Assembly: GCF_032854445.1 (NCBI RefSeq)
Contig: NC_088298.1
Coordinates: 17,689,976 to 17,753,975 of the forward strand
DNA length: 64,000 nucleotides
Source of the DNA: Liolophura sinensis
Lineage: Eukaryota > Mollusca > Polyplacophora > Chitonida > Chitonidae
Direction: 5' to 3'
Under the pieces are notes generated by a model. The model was given only the letters and a program-made list of their open reading frames with translations. It did no database searches and had not been told where the DNA came from. Made by a program: the position numbers and the translations under genes. Below are positions 9,016-23,924 of the stretch, piece after piece. How positions within the stretch are numbered: the stretch's first letter is position 1; the number at the start of each line of letters is the position of its first letter.

Positions 9016-9354
9016 ACGCAGAGTTGAATTACCTTCATGAAAACTTGAAAGGCAATGACAAAGAAGTGTGCACAAATATTTTGGAAAATTTGAGCTTAAC
9101 TTTTAAGATTAGTTTTTATCCCTTGTTTATTCAACAGATTTTTGGCTTGCCTTAGCTATTTAAAGTATAGCCTAAACACATCTAAAGGCCTACGTGTACA
9201 GCATCGACGAAGCGGCAACGAGTTTTCCGAACGTAAGGAGGTGATAGGTTAAATTTTCAAAACGACAAAAAGCAGCAAATTAAGGGAAAATAAGTTTTGT
9301 AAATTAGCGACTTTGTTTTTTATTTGGGTCATATCACAAGGGTGATTCTTAATC
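9016..9354. other. No gene seen
   Basis: AT-rich spacer between an R1 and a SINE-1 copy; nothing recognisable. Confidence 0.4.
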
Positions 9355-13079: not shown

Positions 13080-13218
13080 GTGTCAGTTGTATTTCCTTGT
13101 GAAAGTGAAGTTCACTAATAAACCATATGGTATGTGCACAACTGCCGTCAGCTTCTAAATTTAGCTTGCCACTGTTTACATATGCTGAGTTCAGGGCCTG
13201 TTGTCTGCCTCTGCCTTA

Positions 13219-13297
13219 GAATGTTCCAGAATACGCTCAGTTCGGGGCCTTTTTGTTTACAACAAGTGTTCAGGAATTTTCTTATTCTAGAAAATTC
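13219..13297 (+). promoter_or_regulatory. Three perfect heat-shock-element triplets in the LTR
   Basis: GAATGTTCCAGAA at 13219-13231 (GAA-2-TTC-2-GAA), TTCAGGAATTTTC at 13269-13281 (TTC-2-GAA-2-TTC) and TTCTAGAAAATTC at 13285-13297 (TTC-2-GAA-2-TTC). Each is a full three-unit binding site for trimeric heat shock factor. The third ends 8 bases before the TATA box. Sites 2 and 3 are separated by 3 bases, so they are two trimer sites rather than one register. Confidence 0.7.
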
Positions 13298-13305
13298 CAC
13301 CAGTC

Positions 13306-13312
13306 TATATAA
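13306..13312 (+). promoter_or_regulatory. TATA box of the LTR promoter
   Basis: TATATAA, placed between the heat-shock elements and the expected transcription start near 13335-13340. Its position relative to the downstream AATAAA fits the U3/R boundary of an LTR. Confidence 0.65.
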
Positions 13313-13668
13313 GACCTAAGAAAGCAGCTCAAAGGAGGAGAAAGGAGAATTATTGAGAGTTTTGGATGCTTTCGCTGTGTGTTACTTTAGTAGGCCTTTT
13401 GTGCCGAATTTTGGTGTCTTTATAGCCTCTGGCTTTGTTATATCCTATCTCCACCGAGCACTTATTCAGTCTGAACTTGTATATTTAATTTGTGCTCTTG
13501 TGTACACACTGCTTATTAGTACACGGACCCTGTCTGTGGAATTTTGTGTATATTTCGTCATACACTCGGTTATACTGTGGATTTTCCCTCTTATGAATAT
13601 TGCCTCTGTGCAATTTTTAAGCACTGTGGAGTATATACGTTCGTTTGGACTTGACACCCTTGTACATG

Positions 13669-13766
13669 TAAGTACTTTAGTATTTGTATAGATACTGTTA
13701 TCCTTTCTTGTTAAACTTAAGTACTTTAGTATTTGTAAAAGTTTTGTTATCTGTTCTTGTTAAACC
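13669..13766 (+). repeat. 49-bp direct duplication inside the LTR
   Basis: TAAGTACTTTAGTATTTGTA begins at 13669 and again at 13718, each copy running to CTTGTTAAAC. It lies in the R region just before the polyadenylation signals. Confidence 0.8.
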
Positions 13767-13880
13767 CAATAAATTGTTGTAGAATAAAAATCTGCTGGTT
13801 TTGGTTTTATGCGGCTAAACTGTCGTGTATTTCGAACAAGCCATCTCTTTATAATACAGACAGTTTGGGTCGTAACAAAT

Positions 13881-13898
13881 TGGGGGCTTGTCCGGGAA
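13881..13898 (+). other. Primer-binding site, tRNA-Pro type
   Basis: TGGGGGCTTGTCCGGGAA matches the tRNA-Pro primer-binding site used by many retroelements (TGGGGGCTCGTCCGGGAT) at 16 of 18 positions. It lies 3 bases after the LTR end, where reverse transcription would start. Confidence 0.75.
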
Positions 13899-13995
13899 GT
13901 GCATTTGAATTGGAATTGAAAGGATTTTGAGTAAGTTGTGTCATTTTTCTAGTCTTTGACTTTGTAGTAAATTTTGCCAGCAGATTTTATTCATC

Positions 13996-15276
13996 ATGTC
14001 GGATTTTAAGCCCGACGAGTTTATGGAAGCGCCAGATCAGGATATTTTTGACGTGTTAAATAAGCATGATTTGTATGCTTTAAGCAAGTACCTGAATCTT
14101 AATATCAAAAGATCCTTACGCAAGAAAGATATGCAGTTTAGTATTGCTAAATGTTTGGTAGAATTACAGGAGTTTGATGAAAGTGCATTAGATGCGTACA
14201 GGCCTGAGGGCGATGATTCCACTGTAATAAGACTGAAAGAGTTAGAACTGAAGGAAAAGGAAAATGAAAGATTGTTTAAAGAAAAGGAAGATGAAAGATT
14301 GTTTAAAGAAAAGGAAAATGAAAAAAAAGGTTGTTTAAAGAACGGGAGAATAAAAGAGTGTTCGATTTGGAGAAATTGAGACTTCAGAGCGAAATTAAAG
14401 CGAGGAAACTAGAAGGAGATAGGTCTGGCTTAAGTTTTTCTGATATGCCTCTAAAATTTGACGTCGCTGGAAACATAAGATTGGTGCCACAATTTCGTGA
14501 GACTAATGTAGATAATATTTTCTACAGTTTGAGGAGATTGCTCAAAATTTAGAGTGGCCTAAAAAGTTTGGGACTACCCTTTTACAGCGTGTGTTAACCG
14601 GCAAAGTTATGGATATATACACAGTTATCAACAGAACAGGCTGCAGATTATGATTTTGTGAAAGATGTTATCTTAAAAAGATATGAGCTTGTGCCAGAAA
14701 TTTAGAAATTTTGAGAAAAGAGATCAGACTTACATTGAATTTGCTAGGCAGAAGGAACAGTTGTTTGAGCAGTGGTGTTCTGTTAAAAGTGTAGATAAAG
14801 ATCATGAAAAGTTAAAAGAGATCATTTTGATTGAAGACTTTAAAAGGTGTATTAATGATGATGTCAGAACTTTCATTGAGGACAAAGAGGCTGATACATT
14901 AGAAGTAGCAGCCACTATGGCTGATACTTACACCGTTACACATAAGGTCTTTTTTCAGAAAAAGCCGTCTACATTTAGAAAGCCTCAACCATTTTCCAGC
15001 AGTTCATTTAACTCAAATTCAGGCCCACCGAAACAGACTCAAAATTTTGACAAATCAGGTGAGCAAAGAAGGCCTGTTAATTCGAACACTACTCAACGAA
15101 GGTCTGGTCATACATTTACTGATAGACAGTTTAGCAGGGTTACATGTAATTATTGTAGGAAGCCAGGCCATGTTGTTTCAAATTGTTATGCTTTAAAGAG
15201 AAGGCAAGAACAGGAGGGTGGCTCCAAGCCTACTGGTTTGTGTGTTACCGCTAAAAAGTCTGATGTAGTGGTGTAA
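13996..15276 (+). pseudogene. Broken gag of the LTR retrotransposon
   Basis: Gag would build the virus-like particle. The first frame opens at 13996 with MSDFKPDEFMEAPDQDIFDV and becomes a lysine/glutamate-rich coil with short tandem repeats. It breaks at an A8 run near 14325. Matching pieces continue in other frames (14331-14552, then about 14540-14680), and the last opens at 14683. That last piece has a helical capsid half (residues 5-88) resembling the SCAN-like gag of Gmr1-type Ty3 elements, and a CCHC zinc knuckle (C155, C158, H163, C168). At least four frame breaks make it non-functional. No protease, reverse transcriptase or integrase follows, so the element is cut off after gag. Confidence 0.8.
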
Positions 15277-15754
15277 CGAGGTCTATGTCAAACAAACTTT
15301 CTGATGACGGCAAAAACACAGTAACGGACTTACAAGAAACATTTCTTACACAAATGTTTACTCAAGGCGACTGCATTAGTAATGATAAATCAGACCATTG
15401 TGACATACCACCATACCGTTGGTTTGTTAGATGACTTTGTCCTTGTTTGGCTCTGTCCAATCCAGCTGTCGCTGCTTAGGCTGCGGTTTGGAATGAGGAG
15501 ATTTGTCAGTTACATGTCGGGACAGTGAAATCTTGACTACTTACCAATTTGATGTGGACGAGCAAGAAAAACCATTATAAGCTTGTTTCATGGATGTGAG
15601 AATAATTGCGACGTTCTTGTTTACACCTTTTATTTAGTTATGTTGTATTTCATGCAGCACTCCTATAGGAGGACTAACTAGTACATGTGTGGGACTTCTA
15701 CATGGCACCTTTACAGACCGGTACTTATTACAGTCTAACCGATCAGTACATCTT
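15277..15754. other. Gene-free stretch after gag
   Basis: No pol motif is visible in any frame. Around 15710-15760 motifs of the following minisatellite begin (GACCGGTACTTATTACAG). Confidence 0.4.
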
Positions 15755-15965
15755 ACATCCTGACAGAGCTGTTAATCGTACACCAAGAAAGGCCGGTGCA
15801 TATAACATCTTGACAGATTGGATTATCGTGCACCACGAAAGGCTGGTGCATATAACATCTTGACAGATTGGATTATCGTGCACCACGAAAGGCTGGTGCA
15901 TATAACATCTTGACAGACCGGATCATCGTACACCACGAATGGCGGGTGCATGTAACATCTTGATA
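15755..15965 (+). repeat. 50-bp minisatellite, left arm
   Basis: Units start ACATCTTGACAGATTGGATT and end CACGAAAGGCTGGTGCATAT. ACATCT recurs at 15805, 15855, 15905 and 15955, an exact 50-base period. Confidence 0.9.
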
Positions 15966-16539
15966 GCGTGCAATGAAAGTCCGTTGTTTCGCTTTTATGG
16001 TTTTACATCACCCGGGAAAGTGTTGCGGCGCGATGTGAACTTTGACATTGACAGACAACATGTGGTCGACTTGTTGACATTATGAAAGCGGTGTAATGGT
16101 CTACAAAACGGTATTTCAAATGCACTGACATCCCATGTGTTTCGTAAAGATATGTTCTCTCCTCGCCTCTGATATTTGCACGCGACAGACAGCTATGTTC
16201 ATTGAAAATAATTGTTTCATTAACTCTGTTCTTTTCCGCCAAAAATCGCACTGCAACTACAACATATCGTAAATGTAATCAGTTTTATACAGTAAGTACA
16301 GTTAACATTAACGGCCGCCTGGCGCCTACATTCTATGGCATATATCAAAAGCGCGTACTAAGTGAAGGCATCTTATGCAGGTTTATGTTTGTTTTCTTTG
16401 CAGTCAATCGAATATATGTGATCACAATTATATGCGGGTTCAGGTCTTGTTCAACTGCTGTACCACGGTTCAAGCTTGTTCATTAACATCGGTGATATTC
16501 TGGGAACAACGATTGGCGGTAAGCTGTTACATACAGATG
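15966..16539. other. No gene seen
   Basis: Sequence between the two blocks of the left minisatellite arm. Short open frames on both strands have no recognisable domain. Confidence 0.4.
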
Positions 16540-16736
16540 GCACACCACGAAAGGCCGGTGCATGTAACATCTTGACAGGCCTGTTCATCGTACATCACGA
16601 AAGGCCGGTGCATGTAACATCTTGACAGACCGCATCATCATACGCCACGAAAGGCTGTGTATGTAACATCATGACAGACCGGATAATCGTACACACCCTG
16701 ACAGACAGGTGCATCATACACCCTGATAGATCGGTA
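16540..16736 (+). repeat. 50-bp minisatellite, left arm continued
   Basis: About four degenerate units with CACGAAAGGCCGGTGCATGT and AACATCTTGACAG, ending in TACACCCTGATAGATCGGTA immediately before the LINE 3' end. Confidence 0.85.
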
Positions 16737-16955: not shown

Positions 16956-17866
16956 TTATATAACAGGTTTAAGAATGGGTTTCAGTCTTAGCACTTTGTA
17001 CCTTAAAAGGAGCTTGTTTGAACTACTTGGTGAGTACGATGGATAAATCTTCGAGTATCTTGAATGAATTTGTGCACAGAACGTAAAGTAAAAAGTAAAA
17101 AGTAAAATATTTGAGATATGTTTTGAGCAATGCGGAAGGAAAATAGATAAGTGAGCATTTGGAGAAATCGTTTTAGTAAACCTGTGGAACATGTGCTTCC
17201 TTTGAGCGGCATATGCGGGACATTCAATAAGAAAATGATGAGAATTTTCACATCTGTAATTACATTTATGACAAGACTGGTCATCTGAAAGGCCATTTGT
17301 AAATAAGTCTGCGTGAAGAACGCTCAGTCCCATCCTACAATGCAGTATCGAGGAAAATGTTACAAAAGAATCGTACAGTACGGAAATAGTAATGCTGTCA
17401 ACAAAACTAGGTTTGAGATAGGATTTAAGCTTTTCTAGAGAGTCGTGACGAAAGTGGAGAAGTATTGAATCCCAATCTTTAATTGTTTGGGGAATAAATG
17501 ACGACATGTACAACTGGATACGACCTTTGGGAAGACGGATGTTGTGCTTATTTCGTAGATTGTATGTACTGGCGACAGCTTCATTTCCGCATGGTAGTAA
17601 TTTTTCAAATAAGGAGGCGATAGCCCATTTATAATTTTATGGAAGAGAAGAATTCTGTGGGATCTACGTCTCACATAAAGCGGTTCCCATCTTAGTTCGT
17701 TTAATAATTTACTATACGATGTCCGACCTAGGCCCCCAGAACAGAGAAGAGCAGCTCTTCGCTGAATTGTTTCAAGTTTTTGAGACAACACTATACCGCA
17801 ATTGTCAAACAGGATGTCACCGTATTCGATGGTAGATCTTATTTGACTGAAGTATAGAGTTTTCAA
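16956..17866 (-). pseudogene. LINE ORF2, C-terminal part with zinc-binding tail
   Basis: The first piece (17866-17435) reads FSQIRSTIEYGDILFDNCG, the thumb region after the reverse transcriptase. A frame change at about 17435-17513 leads to SCHKCNYRCENSHHFLIEC, a Cys/His cluster near the C terminus of many CR1/Jockey-type proteins that may bind template nucleic acid. Stops between 17866 and 17908 separate it from the reverse transcriptase. Confidence 0.75.
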
Positions 17867-17907
17867 ACATTTTCGGGTAAGGCATTTCTTACGTGGGTTG
17901 AGAATAC

Positions 17908-18828
17908 TCAGTTTTTGTTACATTTATTAACTAAGTTTCTAATGTGTTCGTCCCATTTCCCATTGTGTTGTAAAAAGATCCCAAGGTGTTTGTGGGACTG
18001 AAGGATCTTCACCGCCGTGCCATTAAGATACAGTTTGGGATAGGAAGGATTTCCCTTTAATGATACAAGTAAATAAACTGTCTTAAGAGCATTGAATGTG
18101 ACACACCATTGATTTGCCCACGATGCTAACTTGTTAAGGTCACGGTTCAGTCTAGTTTCTGAGACTGGTAGTTCTTTAATTTCTTCTAACAAGGATGTGT
18201 CGTCAGCAAATATATTTATGTCACATTCAATATTAGTATTTGTATCATTTATGAAGATAAGAAACAACAAAGGACCAAGTACAGAGCCCTGGGGAACTCC
18301 TGAGTACGTAGGATTCGAGCTAGATTCTTTACCGTTGAGGCAAACAGAGATTGATCGATCAGATAAGTAATCATTTATCCACGCCAGTAACATTCCTCCA
18401 ATACCCATCTGCCTCAACTTAAATAGTAAACCTGTGTGCCAAACCTTGTCAAAGGCTTTGCTCACATCCAAGAATACCAAACACATATCATTACCGTTGT
18501 CTAAACCTTTATAAATATTATGGACGATTTTAGTTAGTTGACAGATAGTTGAATCACCACTTTTGAATCCTGCATTGTGAGGAATAAGAATATTGTTTAT
18601 CGTAAGATATTGATATAAATGTTTATAGACGACTTTTTCAAATACTTTGGATATCGATGGTTGAAGACATACTGGTCTGTAGTTAGAAATACAATGTCGA
18701 TCACCTTTTTTAAATACTGGGCAAACACGGCACCTTTTCCACGCGGACGGAAAGACGCCATTTTGTAATGAAGAGTTAAATAGTTTTGTAAGCGAGGGTA
18801 CTATACTTCCTGCTGCAATCTGCAACAT
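17908..18828 (-). pseudogene. LINE ORF2, reverse transcriptase part
   Basis: Canonical motifs appear in order: NYRPVCLQPSISKVFE, FLDVSKAFDKVWH (first catalytic Asp), SGVPQGSVLGPLLFLIFIND and NIFADDTSLL (catalytic FADD). These belong to the polymerase that copies LINE RNA at the nicked target. All catalytic residues are kept in this segment. The segment is cut off from the endonuclease by a frameshift near 18925 and from the C-terminal part by stops near 17890. Confidence 0.85.
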
Positions 18829-18920
18829 AAAATTACTGATCCCATCCGGACCTGATGCCTTCCTTGTATTTAACGAACTGAGACACTGACCAACTTCCTT
18901 TTCAGTTATTTGTATACTGT

Positions 18921-19997
18921 TTAAACGAGTTGTAGTAACGAGAAGGAGAAGTCCAGCAAGTCGGGGACAGGAGATGGAAGGTCAGAATGTGATGCAAAGA
19001 ATGCACAGAAAGCATTGGCCTTATCAATATCCCTGGACACATTTATTCCATTTACGAGTAGTGGTGGTATTGGAGGTTTTGCTTTAGAACCCAACAGTGA
19101 TTTCATTGAAGACCAGTAAGTCTTGGTATCTAGATTTGGGTCAGATAGTTTGGTCTTTAGACGTGTAGCGTAGCGACGAATTGCCTCTCTTTTGGCTGTG
19201 TTGGCCTCCCTTCTGGCTATATAGAAGCGAAATTTATCTTTTTCGTTTTTAGATCTTTTATACTTTTTAAAGCATCTATTTCGAATTCGTAACTCATATC
19301 GCACATCATTGGTCACCCAGGGCTTGTCGCGAGGTCTCACGGTAATTTCTTTATTTGGGATAGCTTCCTTACAGCATGATAGAAAAAGATTTGACCATGC
19401 ATACACTTTGTCATTTATATCAGTGAAAACGTCACATATATCCCAGGGTGAGACAGACAGTAAGTTACGTAGACGGTCTATATCAGCACATTTAAGGTCC
19501 CGTACATGTCTTTTAAAAGATTTAGGTTTATCATTGCACAGAACATCCAGTTTACAATAGATCGTGCAGTGGTCAAGATTAGCCATGGGACAAGCCACTC
19601 CGTAATCTATTACATATCTCATATTGTCAGTGATTATTAGATCTAATAAATAAGCACTGTCTTCCGTATATCTTGTCGGCTCATTCAGTATTTGAAATAA
19701 ATTTTTCCCAGCCAAAAGGTCGGAAAGTTTCATTTTTAATTCACTCTTTTCATGGTATTTATTCCAGTCAGTGCAGCGATCGTTAAAATCACCAAATATT
19801 AGTAAAGCATGTGGGTTTTCTGATATAACAGAAGTGAGAGTAGAATCAAAGTTATCAATAAAAAGATCCCGTGATTCCGTTGATTGGTTAGGAGGGCGGT
19901 AACATACAGCAACTAATACACTTCTATTGAACAATTCAATTGTAATCCATAGCATTTCATTTTCATTTTCAAGATCTAATCTGCGTGTGATATTCAA
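18921..19997 (-). pseudogene. LINE ORF2, endonuclease part
   Basis: Contains VAVCYRPPNQS, LLIFGDFNDRCTDWN (the GDFN motif of the exonuclease/endonuclease/phosphatase fold) and MANLDHCTIYCKLD (the catalytic -DH- at the domain end), then KPWVTNDVRYELRIRNRCFK of the linker. It nicks target DNA to prime reverse transcription. The first part of the domain is in the neighbouring frame at 19994-20512; the shift lies in a GGGG run near 20025. Confidence 0.8.
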
Positions 19998-20512
19998 TGA
20001 TGACTTACAATAAATGGCAACACCCCACCATGCCTATCTCTGTCTTTCCTTATAATGTAGTACCCTTCTATATTAACTCTTTCATCTGGTATGGCAGAAC
20101 TAAGCCAAGTTTCTGTTACACAAATAATATCGTAATCATGTTCTATTACAAGTACGGTCGAGACTTCGTCTAACTTAGAATATGATGACATTTGATCATC
20201 AGACTGAGCCAGAAGGCTCCTAGCATTAAAATGACAACATCTTAAGTTATGCGAGCTTGGTGGTCCCGGATTTTTATGTATATCTCCGCATCGCAGCAGT
20301 AATGCGATATTGACAATTAAAACGTAATTCAAATTGTTTAACATACAAAGAATACCTATAATAACACAAAATAGTAAAGAGTCAGTAGCATTACAAATCA
20401 CTGTTAATTCATTCAGCAGGTTTATAAGTTTGATTAGGTGTACCCTACTTTTACAGCACACAAAGTTATACCAAGTCCCGATTGCCACACGATATTGACT
20501 CAGGTAATCCAT
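19994..20512 (-). pseudogene. LINE ORF2, N terminus with 2A-like motif and start of endonuclease
   Basis: A hydrophobic segment (about residues 47-73) leads into LLLRCGDIHKNPGP (G76 to P84), the form of a 2A translational-recoding peptide, with His where canonical 2A has Glu. The endonuclease start follows: CCHFNARSLLAQ and ICVTETWLSS. In this LINE group such N termini may act as a signal or self-separating leader. The frame is lost after DRHGGVL. Confidence 0.75.
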
Positions 20513-20749
20513 GACGTAACAACATTTAAGAACGAAAGAAGCACATGTTCTAGCCTGGTTACCATCGTACTCACTTTATAACAGCTCGAATTTTTGTTTA
20601 TTACGCATGTCGTTTTCGGTAAGATCACGTGTAACATAGTCCAGTACATACAAGTAAGAATTTCAAAATAAATCAAAAAATATGAGAAGTGAGTGCGTAC
20701 ATAGTACGTCCTCAGAAGCACCAGTCCCAGACAGAAGCGTATAGGGAAA

Positions 20750-23387: not shown

Positions 23388-23924
23388 TCACTTGGGCACA
23401 TCATAAAGGACCACATGAGCCTTCACATACTCTTCACGTGATATCAACCCATCTCTGTCCTCATCCATTCTTTTGAAAACAGCGTTGATAAAATCTTCGT
23501 CATGGACTCCGTACGATTTGTAATAAATACGTAGCTCTTCTGCTGTGATAGATCCATCTTTGTTCCGGTCTACAAGGTCAAAGATCGGTCCAAAATCTGC
23601 TCGAGTTTTGTTTTGTGCTTCTGTGAGGTCTTTAGTAGTGCAGAAGGCTATGGCGCGTTGAACAACCTCTGGAATGGGAACTTTGGTAACACTTTTCTTC
23701 CCACCACGATAAAATTCCCACCAGAATGTTGCGATTCTTTCCATGTCCTCAACATCCTTAGGAGTGGCATTGCAAAGCTCAGTCATGTTCTTCAACGCCA
23801 ATTCGTGATCTTCTTTAGTAATAAATCCATCATCATTAACGTCGAGAAACCTGGAGTAAGATCTGATTTTGTTGATACGATAGTCGCTCATGCCAGTAGA
23901 CGCCTGCGTAGACATTTGTGCCAT
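23388..23924 (-). CDS. EF-hand calcium-binding protein, SCP-like, alpha copy of unit 1 (C-terminal deletion)
   Basis: 178 codons, open from ATG at 23924, which directly follows acceptor TTTCTTTCAAGTAG. Begins MAQMSTQASTGMSDYRINKI. Loop 1 is DVNDDGFITKED, the second hand is degenerate (EFYRGGKKSVTKVPIPEVVQ), loop 3 DRNKDGSITAEE and loop 4 DEDRDGLISREE, so three hands should bind calcium. After EYVKAHV the sequence jumps to VLYDVPK: 13 codons that paralogues use for the FWYSDDPENG segment are missing in frame. That tail packs against the domain core in SCPs, so the protein may fold less well. It is otherwise nearly identical to the copy at 33309-33884. Confidence 0.75.
   Translation of the reverse strand: MAQMSTQASTGMSDYRINKIRSYSRFLDVNDDGFITKEDHELALKNMTELCNATPKDVEDMERIATFWWEFYRGGKKSVTKVPIPEVVQRAIAFCTTKDLTEAQNKTRADFGPIFDLVDRNKDGSITAEELRIYYKSYGVHDEDFINAVFKRMDEDRDGLISREEYVKAHVVLYDVPK

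Follow-up and report, generated by a model that had tools for sequence, protein, structure and literature searches.

Clustered heat-shock elements in the long terminal repeats of a chiton retrotransposon family suggest a promoter driven by heat-shock factor

Can an animal retrotransposon be tied to the heat-shock response of its host? A long terminal repeat (LTR) in a 64-kb stretch of the genome of the chiton Liolophura (contig C4, 17689976-17753975, forward strand; we call this whole stretch the window) raises the question, as its upstream part, U3, has three perfect heat-shock elements (HSEs) just before a TATA box. An earlier note on this DNA proposed that the element is, or was, induced by stress through the host's heat-shock factor (HSF). 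We find that the cluster is real and family-wide, that it appears well fitted to control by HSF, and that it looks unusually strong for an LTR element of an animal. We argue that U3 is probably an HSF-driven promoter that couples transcription of the element to stress. If so, this is the strategy of the plant retrotransposon ONSEN in an animal.

The three sites, and the TATATAA that follows 8 bases after the last of them, lie exactly where the earlier note had placed them (Table 1). Each site consists of GAA or TTC triplets in alternating orientation with 2-base gaps, and the window has no further perfect HSE of three units. Under an order-1 Markov model, 0.77 such sites are expected per window, and not one of 300 simulated windows had a group of three inside 90 bp. 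In 20,000 simulations of the 178-bp U3, the number of HSEs averaged 0.0012 and never reached three, as against the observed three within 79 bp. HSE2 and HSE3 are 3 bases apart, which puts them one base out of register, so we read them as two separate trimer sites and not as a six-unit array. There are thus two or three predicted HSF-trimer sites, about 35-115 bp upstream of the predicted transcription start (near 13335), and the last adjoins the TATA box. U3 has runs of three or more adjacent nGAAn units, by which heat-responsive LTR elements are recognized. The earlier note's reading of the place as an LTR promoter was borne out.

The host encodes an HSF1-type factor. We found three loci with HSF domains: the DNA-binding exon L088, with the residues ASFIRQLNM, is most like HSF1 across 32 residues that take in most of the recognition helix, and another (L086) is closest to HSF5, followed by Drosophila HSF and HSF1. 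We also read three 750-bp pieces upstream of three intronless hsp70 genes. Each of these promoters has one perfect HSE (TTCCGGAACATTC or TTCCGGAAGCTTC) about 130-145 bp before TATAAA, with imperfect sites nearer, so the LTR is richer in perfect sites than these host promoters are.

Is the cluster a peculiarity of this copy? A genome search with the LTR region gave 40 scored matches (1157 first-look candidates). In most of the scored matches, homology begins near position 13128 of the window and ends near 13877, and in some it extends into the leader. We also counted exact patterns across the genome (609,464,459 bases in 632 contigs), with each pattern read backwards as the control. HSE1 together with HSE2 occurs at 554 places, as compared to 1 for the control; this pattern is its own reverse complement, and the forward and reverse counts are the same places. 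HSE2 with a perfect HSE3 occurs at 208 places (control, 1), HSE2 with a variant of HSE3 that has GAC instead of GAA at 378 (control, 0), and HSE1 with HSE3 and TATATAA at 172 (control, 0). An HSE lies 4-25 bp from TATATAA in 808 cases as compared to 24 for the control, with some copies counted twice. Among the matches listed, most are recognizable as the same LTR. So the HSE cluster belongs to the family and is present at hundreds of places beyond the copy in the window. Separately, a second repeated module with an HSE and a TATA box (TTCTCGAAGCTTCGATGAcaaTATATAA) occurs at 9 places, including C1:10849726, C1:32769930, C1:71728956, and C8:10283266, and is unlike the window LTR.

With the addition of 3' LTRs that were found via RNase H, we placed 61 LTRs in two subfamilies: A1 (40 copies, including the window's) and A2 (21 copies); one more was unplaced. 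HSE1 and HSE2 are intact in most copies of both subfamilies (Table 1). HSE3 is another matter. In A2, its middle triplet is GAC in place of GAA; this type of HSE3 is found in 19 of 21 copies of A2 and in 8 of 40 copies of A1. What the family has in common is therefore two perfect HSEs, whereas the third is a trait of a subfamily: the earlier description of three perfect sites holds for the window copy and for A1 and fails for A2. Some copies of A2 have long pol frames that stay open over 875-1078 amino acids, and the copies L061 and L062, which encode reverse transcriptase (RT), also belong to this subfamily. According to the earlier note, triplets that were absent or random in intact members of the family would refute stress control, but HSE1 and HSE2 are found in both subfamilies, RT-encoding copies included.

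What kind of element carries these LTRs? The LTRs run from TG to CA, and in 5' LTRs the next bases are AATTGGGGGCTTGTCCGGGA or something very close to it. Target-site duplications of 4-5 bp flank many of the single LTRs, which marks these as solo LTRs. In several copies, the internal domains are, in order, gag (a SCAN-like capsid and a CCHC knuckle), H2C2 and rve, p58_C, RVT_1 (in some, such as L061), and RT_RNaseH. All of the features that define an LTR retrotransposon are present: TG..CA LTRs, a target-site duplication, a putative primer-binding site, gag, and pol. Also, the integrase domain lies upstream of RT and RNase H, which is the mark of Gmr1-like elements. We class the element as Ty3/gypsy-type with a Gmr1-like domain order, on the basis of domain order and profile matches. 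The order integrase, RT, RNase H would also fit Ty1/copia, but the models that matched (RVT_1, RT_RNaseH, Integrase_H2C2, and p58_C) are typical of Ty3/gypsy, and in the profile comparison the copia-type model RVT_2 had no match in the element's internal parts. For Gmr1-type Ty3/gypsy elements, PMC6238403 describes the same placement of integrase upstream of reverse transcriptase/RNase H; the likeness is one of domain order, and many of the chiton copies differ in being without most of RT.

The two LTRs of a copy differ by 1.06%, 4.16%, and 4.69% in the three copies with such a measurement, and sampled LTRs differ from their nearest neighbors by about 3%. These values imply activity over a range of ages, and that the family is mostly not very recent. 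In the youngest pair (1.06%), both LTRs have all three HSEs and TATATAA. As for the missing RT, 22 of 30 copies that were found via RNase H (among L032, L033, and L036-L059) share one gap, with about 220-252 nt between p58_C and RNase H, although this proportion is biased because the RNase H query was itself taken from an RT-less copy. The distance is about 1150-1177 nt in the RT-bearing copies L051, L061, L062, and L064. In the short-gap copies, about 308 amino acids, which make up most of RT, have been lost in frame. Since the RT-less copies L039 and L045 still have long open frames (1078 and 1029 amino acids), it seems that an RT-less, non-autonomous lineage was amplified.

A related high-copy family, whose RNase H is 72-76% identical and whose open frames reach 1613 amino acids, has no HSEs of this kind: among 12 fetched copies, the 10 with a readable U3 have TATATAA and no three-unit HSE there, even with one mismatch allowed. 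In two of its members (L066 and L067), homology is lost inside U3, before the TATA box. So the HSEs are lineage specific. Homology of U3 between the two families is weak (P = 0.053), so we cannot polarize the change as a gain or a loss of HSEs.

How would such a promoter work? Under heat or another stress that damages proteins, the host's HSF would form trimers, which would bind HSE1, HSE2, and, where it is intact, HSE3. Bound HSF would then promote TATA-dependent transcription from around 13335, and the RNA would end past the two AATAAA signals. Amplification of the element would thereby be coupled to stress in the host. Binding by HSF, induction by heat, and a benefit to the element's spread are what we infer.

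Several observations weigh against this account. HSE3 is degraded in A2, where both the longest open pol frames and the RT-encoding copies are found. The HSE-free related family has longer open frames and no fewer matches to RNase H, which means that success does not depend on HSEs. Nor are the triplets better conserved than the neighboring U3 bases, as the earlier note had expected: in the 30 closest copies there is no excess (0.967 versus 0.972), and among close copies decay is as fast in the triplet columns as in the rest of U3. That test is weak, as most of what these copies record is neutral decay since their insertion. A comparison of the two subfamilies speaks for the account: fixed differences between A1 and A2 affect 0 of 18 positions in the triplets of HSE1 and HSE2, 1 of 9 in HSE3, 2 of 12 in the HSE spacers, and 8 of 139 elsewhere in U3, and the contrast between 0/18 and 8/139 is not significant (p = 0.37). 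The numbers of changes on internal versus terminal branches are 2/18 for HSE1 and HSE2, 4/17 for HSE3, 6/13 for the spacers, and 46/177 for the rest of U3. The difference between HSE1 and HSE2 and the rest of U3 on internal branches is in the direction expected from constraint and is not significant (p = 0.20), so we view constraint on these two sites along internal branches as suggestive.

Perhaps HSF does bind these sites, but mainly for expression in the gonad, in the embryo, or under general stress, and not for heat. HSFs are known to drive germline and developmental genes, HSF1 is active in germ cells and during development, and a heritable element needs to be expressed in the germline; also, the host has several HSF-domain loci. 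On the other hand, a compact array next to the TATA box is what inducible heat-shock promoters look like, and we consider this alternative unlikely. We give still less weight to the idea that the cluster came from one founder as a neutral relic and was amplified without ever being used, which seems quite improbable. High copy number by itself will multiply any motif, and both the lack of excess conservation among close copies and the difference in HSE3 between subfamilies would be expected of a relic. But three perfect sites are very unlikely to have arisen by chance in a founder, and HSE1 and HSE2 stayed constant across the two subfamilies while their spacers changed, albeit with small numbers. 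Finally, it is very improbable that the triplets serve another factor with related half-sites (such as STAT-type TTC..GAA or TEAD-type GAATG): GAATGTTCC appears to hold further known half-sites, but STAT sites have a spacing of 3-4 bases, while all nine triplets here follow the rule for HSF trimers at all three sites, with exact 2-base gaps and alternating orientation.

An HSF-driven LTR promoter would have its closest parallel in ONSEN/COPIA78 (PMC3907296, PMC5059998). Both have clustered nGAAn arrays in an LTR promoter; in both, relatives of the lineages that have the arrays lack them or have lost them, and solo and degraded copies lose sites. Other LTR regions are equally conserved in both; as the heat-responsive element of ONSEN is not the most conserved region of its LTR either, greater conservation of the triplets does not strictly define such elements. 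Among Brassicaceae COPIA elements, predicted 3P/4P heat-responsive elements in LTRs correlate with response to heat (PMC5059998). The differences are that ONSEN is a Ty1/copia element of plants with a four-unit heat-responsive element, for which binding by HSFA2 and induction are proven, while the chiton element is Ty3/gypsy-type, is from a mollusc, has separate three-unit sites and hundreds of copies, and is predicted to be under such control. In animals, according to PMC3907296, the LTR retrotransposon copia of Drosophila contains heat-shock consensus sequences, and heat raises the amount of its RNA; the chiton LTR has up to nine perfect triplets beside its TATA box. DIRS-1 of Dictyostelium, as cited in PMC2685390, also has a heat-shock promoter inside its terminal repeats, but it is a tyrosine-recombinase retrotransposon of an amoeba with inverted repeats, and function was shown. 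Caenorhabditis Helitrons have likewise spread HSEs through an animal genome (PMC6927752); they are rolling-circle DNA transposons, and both HSF-1 binding and heat induction were shown. We found no direct mollusc precedent (chiton heat-stress work, or animal LTRs with HSEs) in the open-licence literature, and other precedents in animals may exist.

Strong HSE arrays in heat-inducible LTR retrotransposons are well known from plants, but the documentation for animals is poor. The chiton family lends itself to a clean test in an animal: its HSE promoters number in the hundreds, its two subfamilies differ in the third site, and an HSE-free related family in the same genome can serve as a control. 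The host lives on the shore, where it is regularly exposed to heat. If the promoter is functional, it would point to an independent origin of the ONSEN strategy in animals, and the genome would have a large supply of ready-made heat-responsive promoters. One can go further and propose that, in an animal of the intertidal zone, a Ty3/gypsy-type element acquired a promoter under HSF control that its related family lacks, that it spread mainly in a non-autonomous form without RT, and that the more than 500 heat-shock promoters that it scattered over the genome include some that now make host genes heat-responsive. Taken as a whole, this scenario is conceivable but rather doubtful.

Table 1. Features of the window copy, in window coordinates
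Feature	Position	Strand	Evidence
LTR (U3-R-U5), 750 bp, TG...CA	13128..13877	+	Homology limits in 30 fetched copies; 4-5 bp direct target-site duplications at several single LTRs
U3 upstream of TATA box	13128..13305 (178 bp)	+	Position relative to TATA
HSE1 GAATGTTCCAGAA, three perfect alternating triplets	13219..13231	+	Intact in 32/40 A1 and 18/21 A2 copies
HSE2 TTCAGGAATTTTC	13269..13281	+	Intact in 33/40 A1 and 18/21 A2 copies
HSE3 TTCTAGAAAATTC, perfect in subfamily A1 (the window's); GAC for GAA in A2	13285..13297	+	Intact in 22/40 A1 and 0/21 A2 copies
TATATAA core promoter box	13306..13312	+	Aligned in both subfamilies; 8 bases past HSE3
Two AATAAA poly(A) signals (13768, 13783)	13768..13788	+	Close to predicted R end
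Primer-binding-site-like TTGGGGGCTTGTCCGGGA	13880..13897	+	Sequence; similar in other 5' LTR copies
Gag remnants, stop-bounded frames 13960-14379 and 14677-15276	13960..15276	+	Second frame with SCAN-like capsid and CCHC knuckle
Internal element part kept in window copy, one internal stretch missing	13878..15401	+	Alignment with other copies

The window copy itself consists of a 5' LTR and a damaged gag region that can be aligned to other copies up to about 15401, and the remainder of the element is missing from the 64 kb, in which there is no second (3') LTR. TTGGGGGCTTGTCCGGGA resembles a primer-binding site of the tRNA-Pro type and may be one. Within U3, a 22-bp direct repeat (13181-13202 and 13232-13253, 51 bp apart; P = 0.0006) has one copy just 5' of HSE1 and the other 5' of HSE2. 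We considered an origin of HSE1 and HSE2 by duplication, as has been proposed for ONSEN, but the repeat excludes the HSEs, so we do not claim this. Directly past the end of the element remnant are tandem repeat units of about 50 bp (15725-15995 and 16537-16657), with a further copy about 0.7 kb off. Shortly downstream, on the minus strand, are what appear by eye to be the remains of a non-LTR retrotransposon (16956-20575), with endonuclease-like and reverse-transcriptase-like frames. Several kilobase-scale duplicated blocks with about 74-89% identity lie within 23243-44700, and one holds a frame like that of an EF-hand calcium-binding protein (23388-23924). Finally, a dispersed family of short repeats with the core ACGACGGCGGCCAGCAT, which may be SINE-like, occurs at 9349, 10141, 21725, 30852, 47009, 47594, and 60345.
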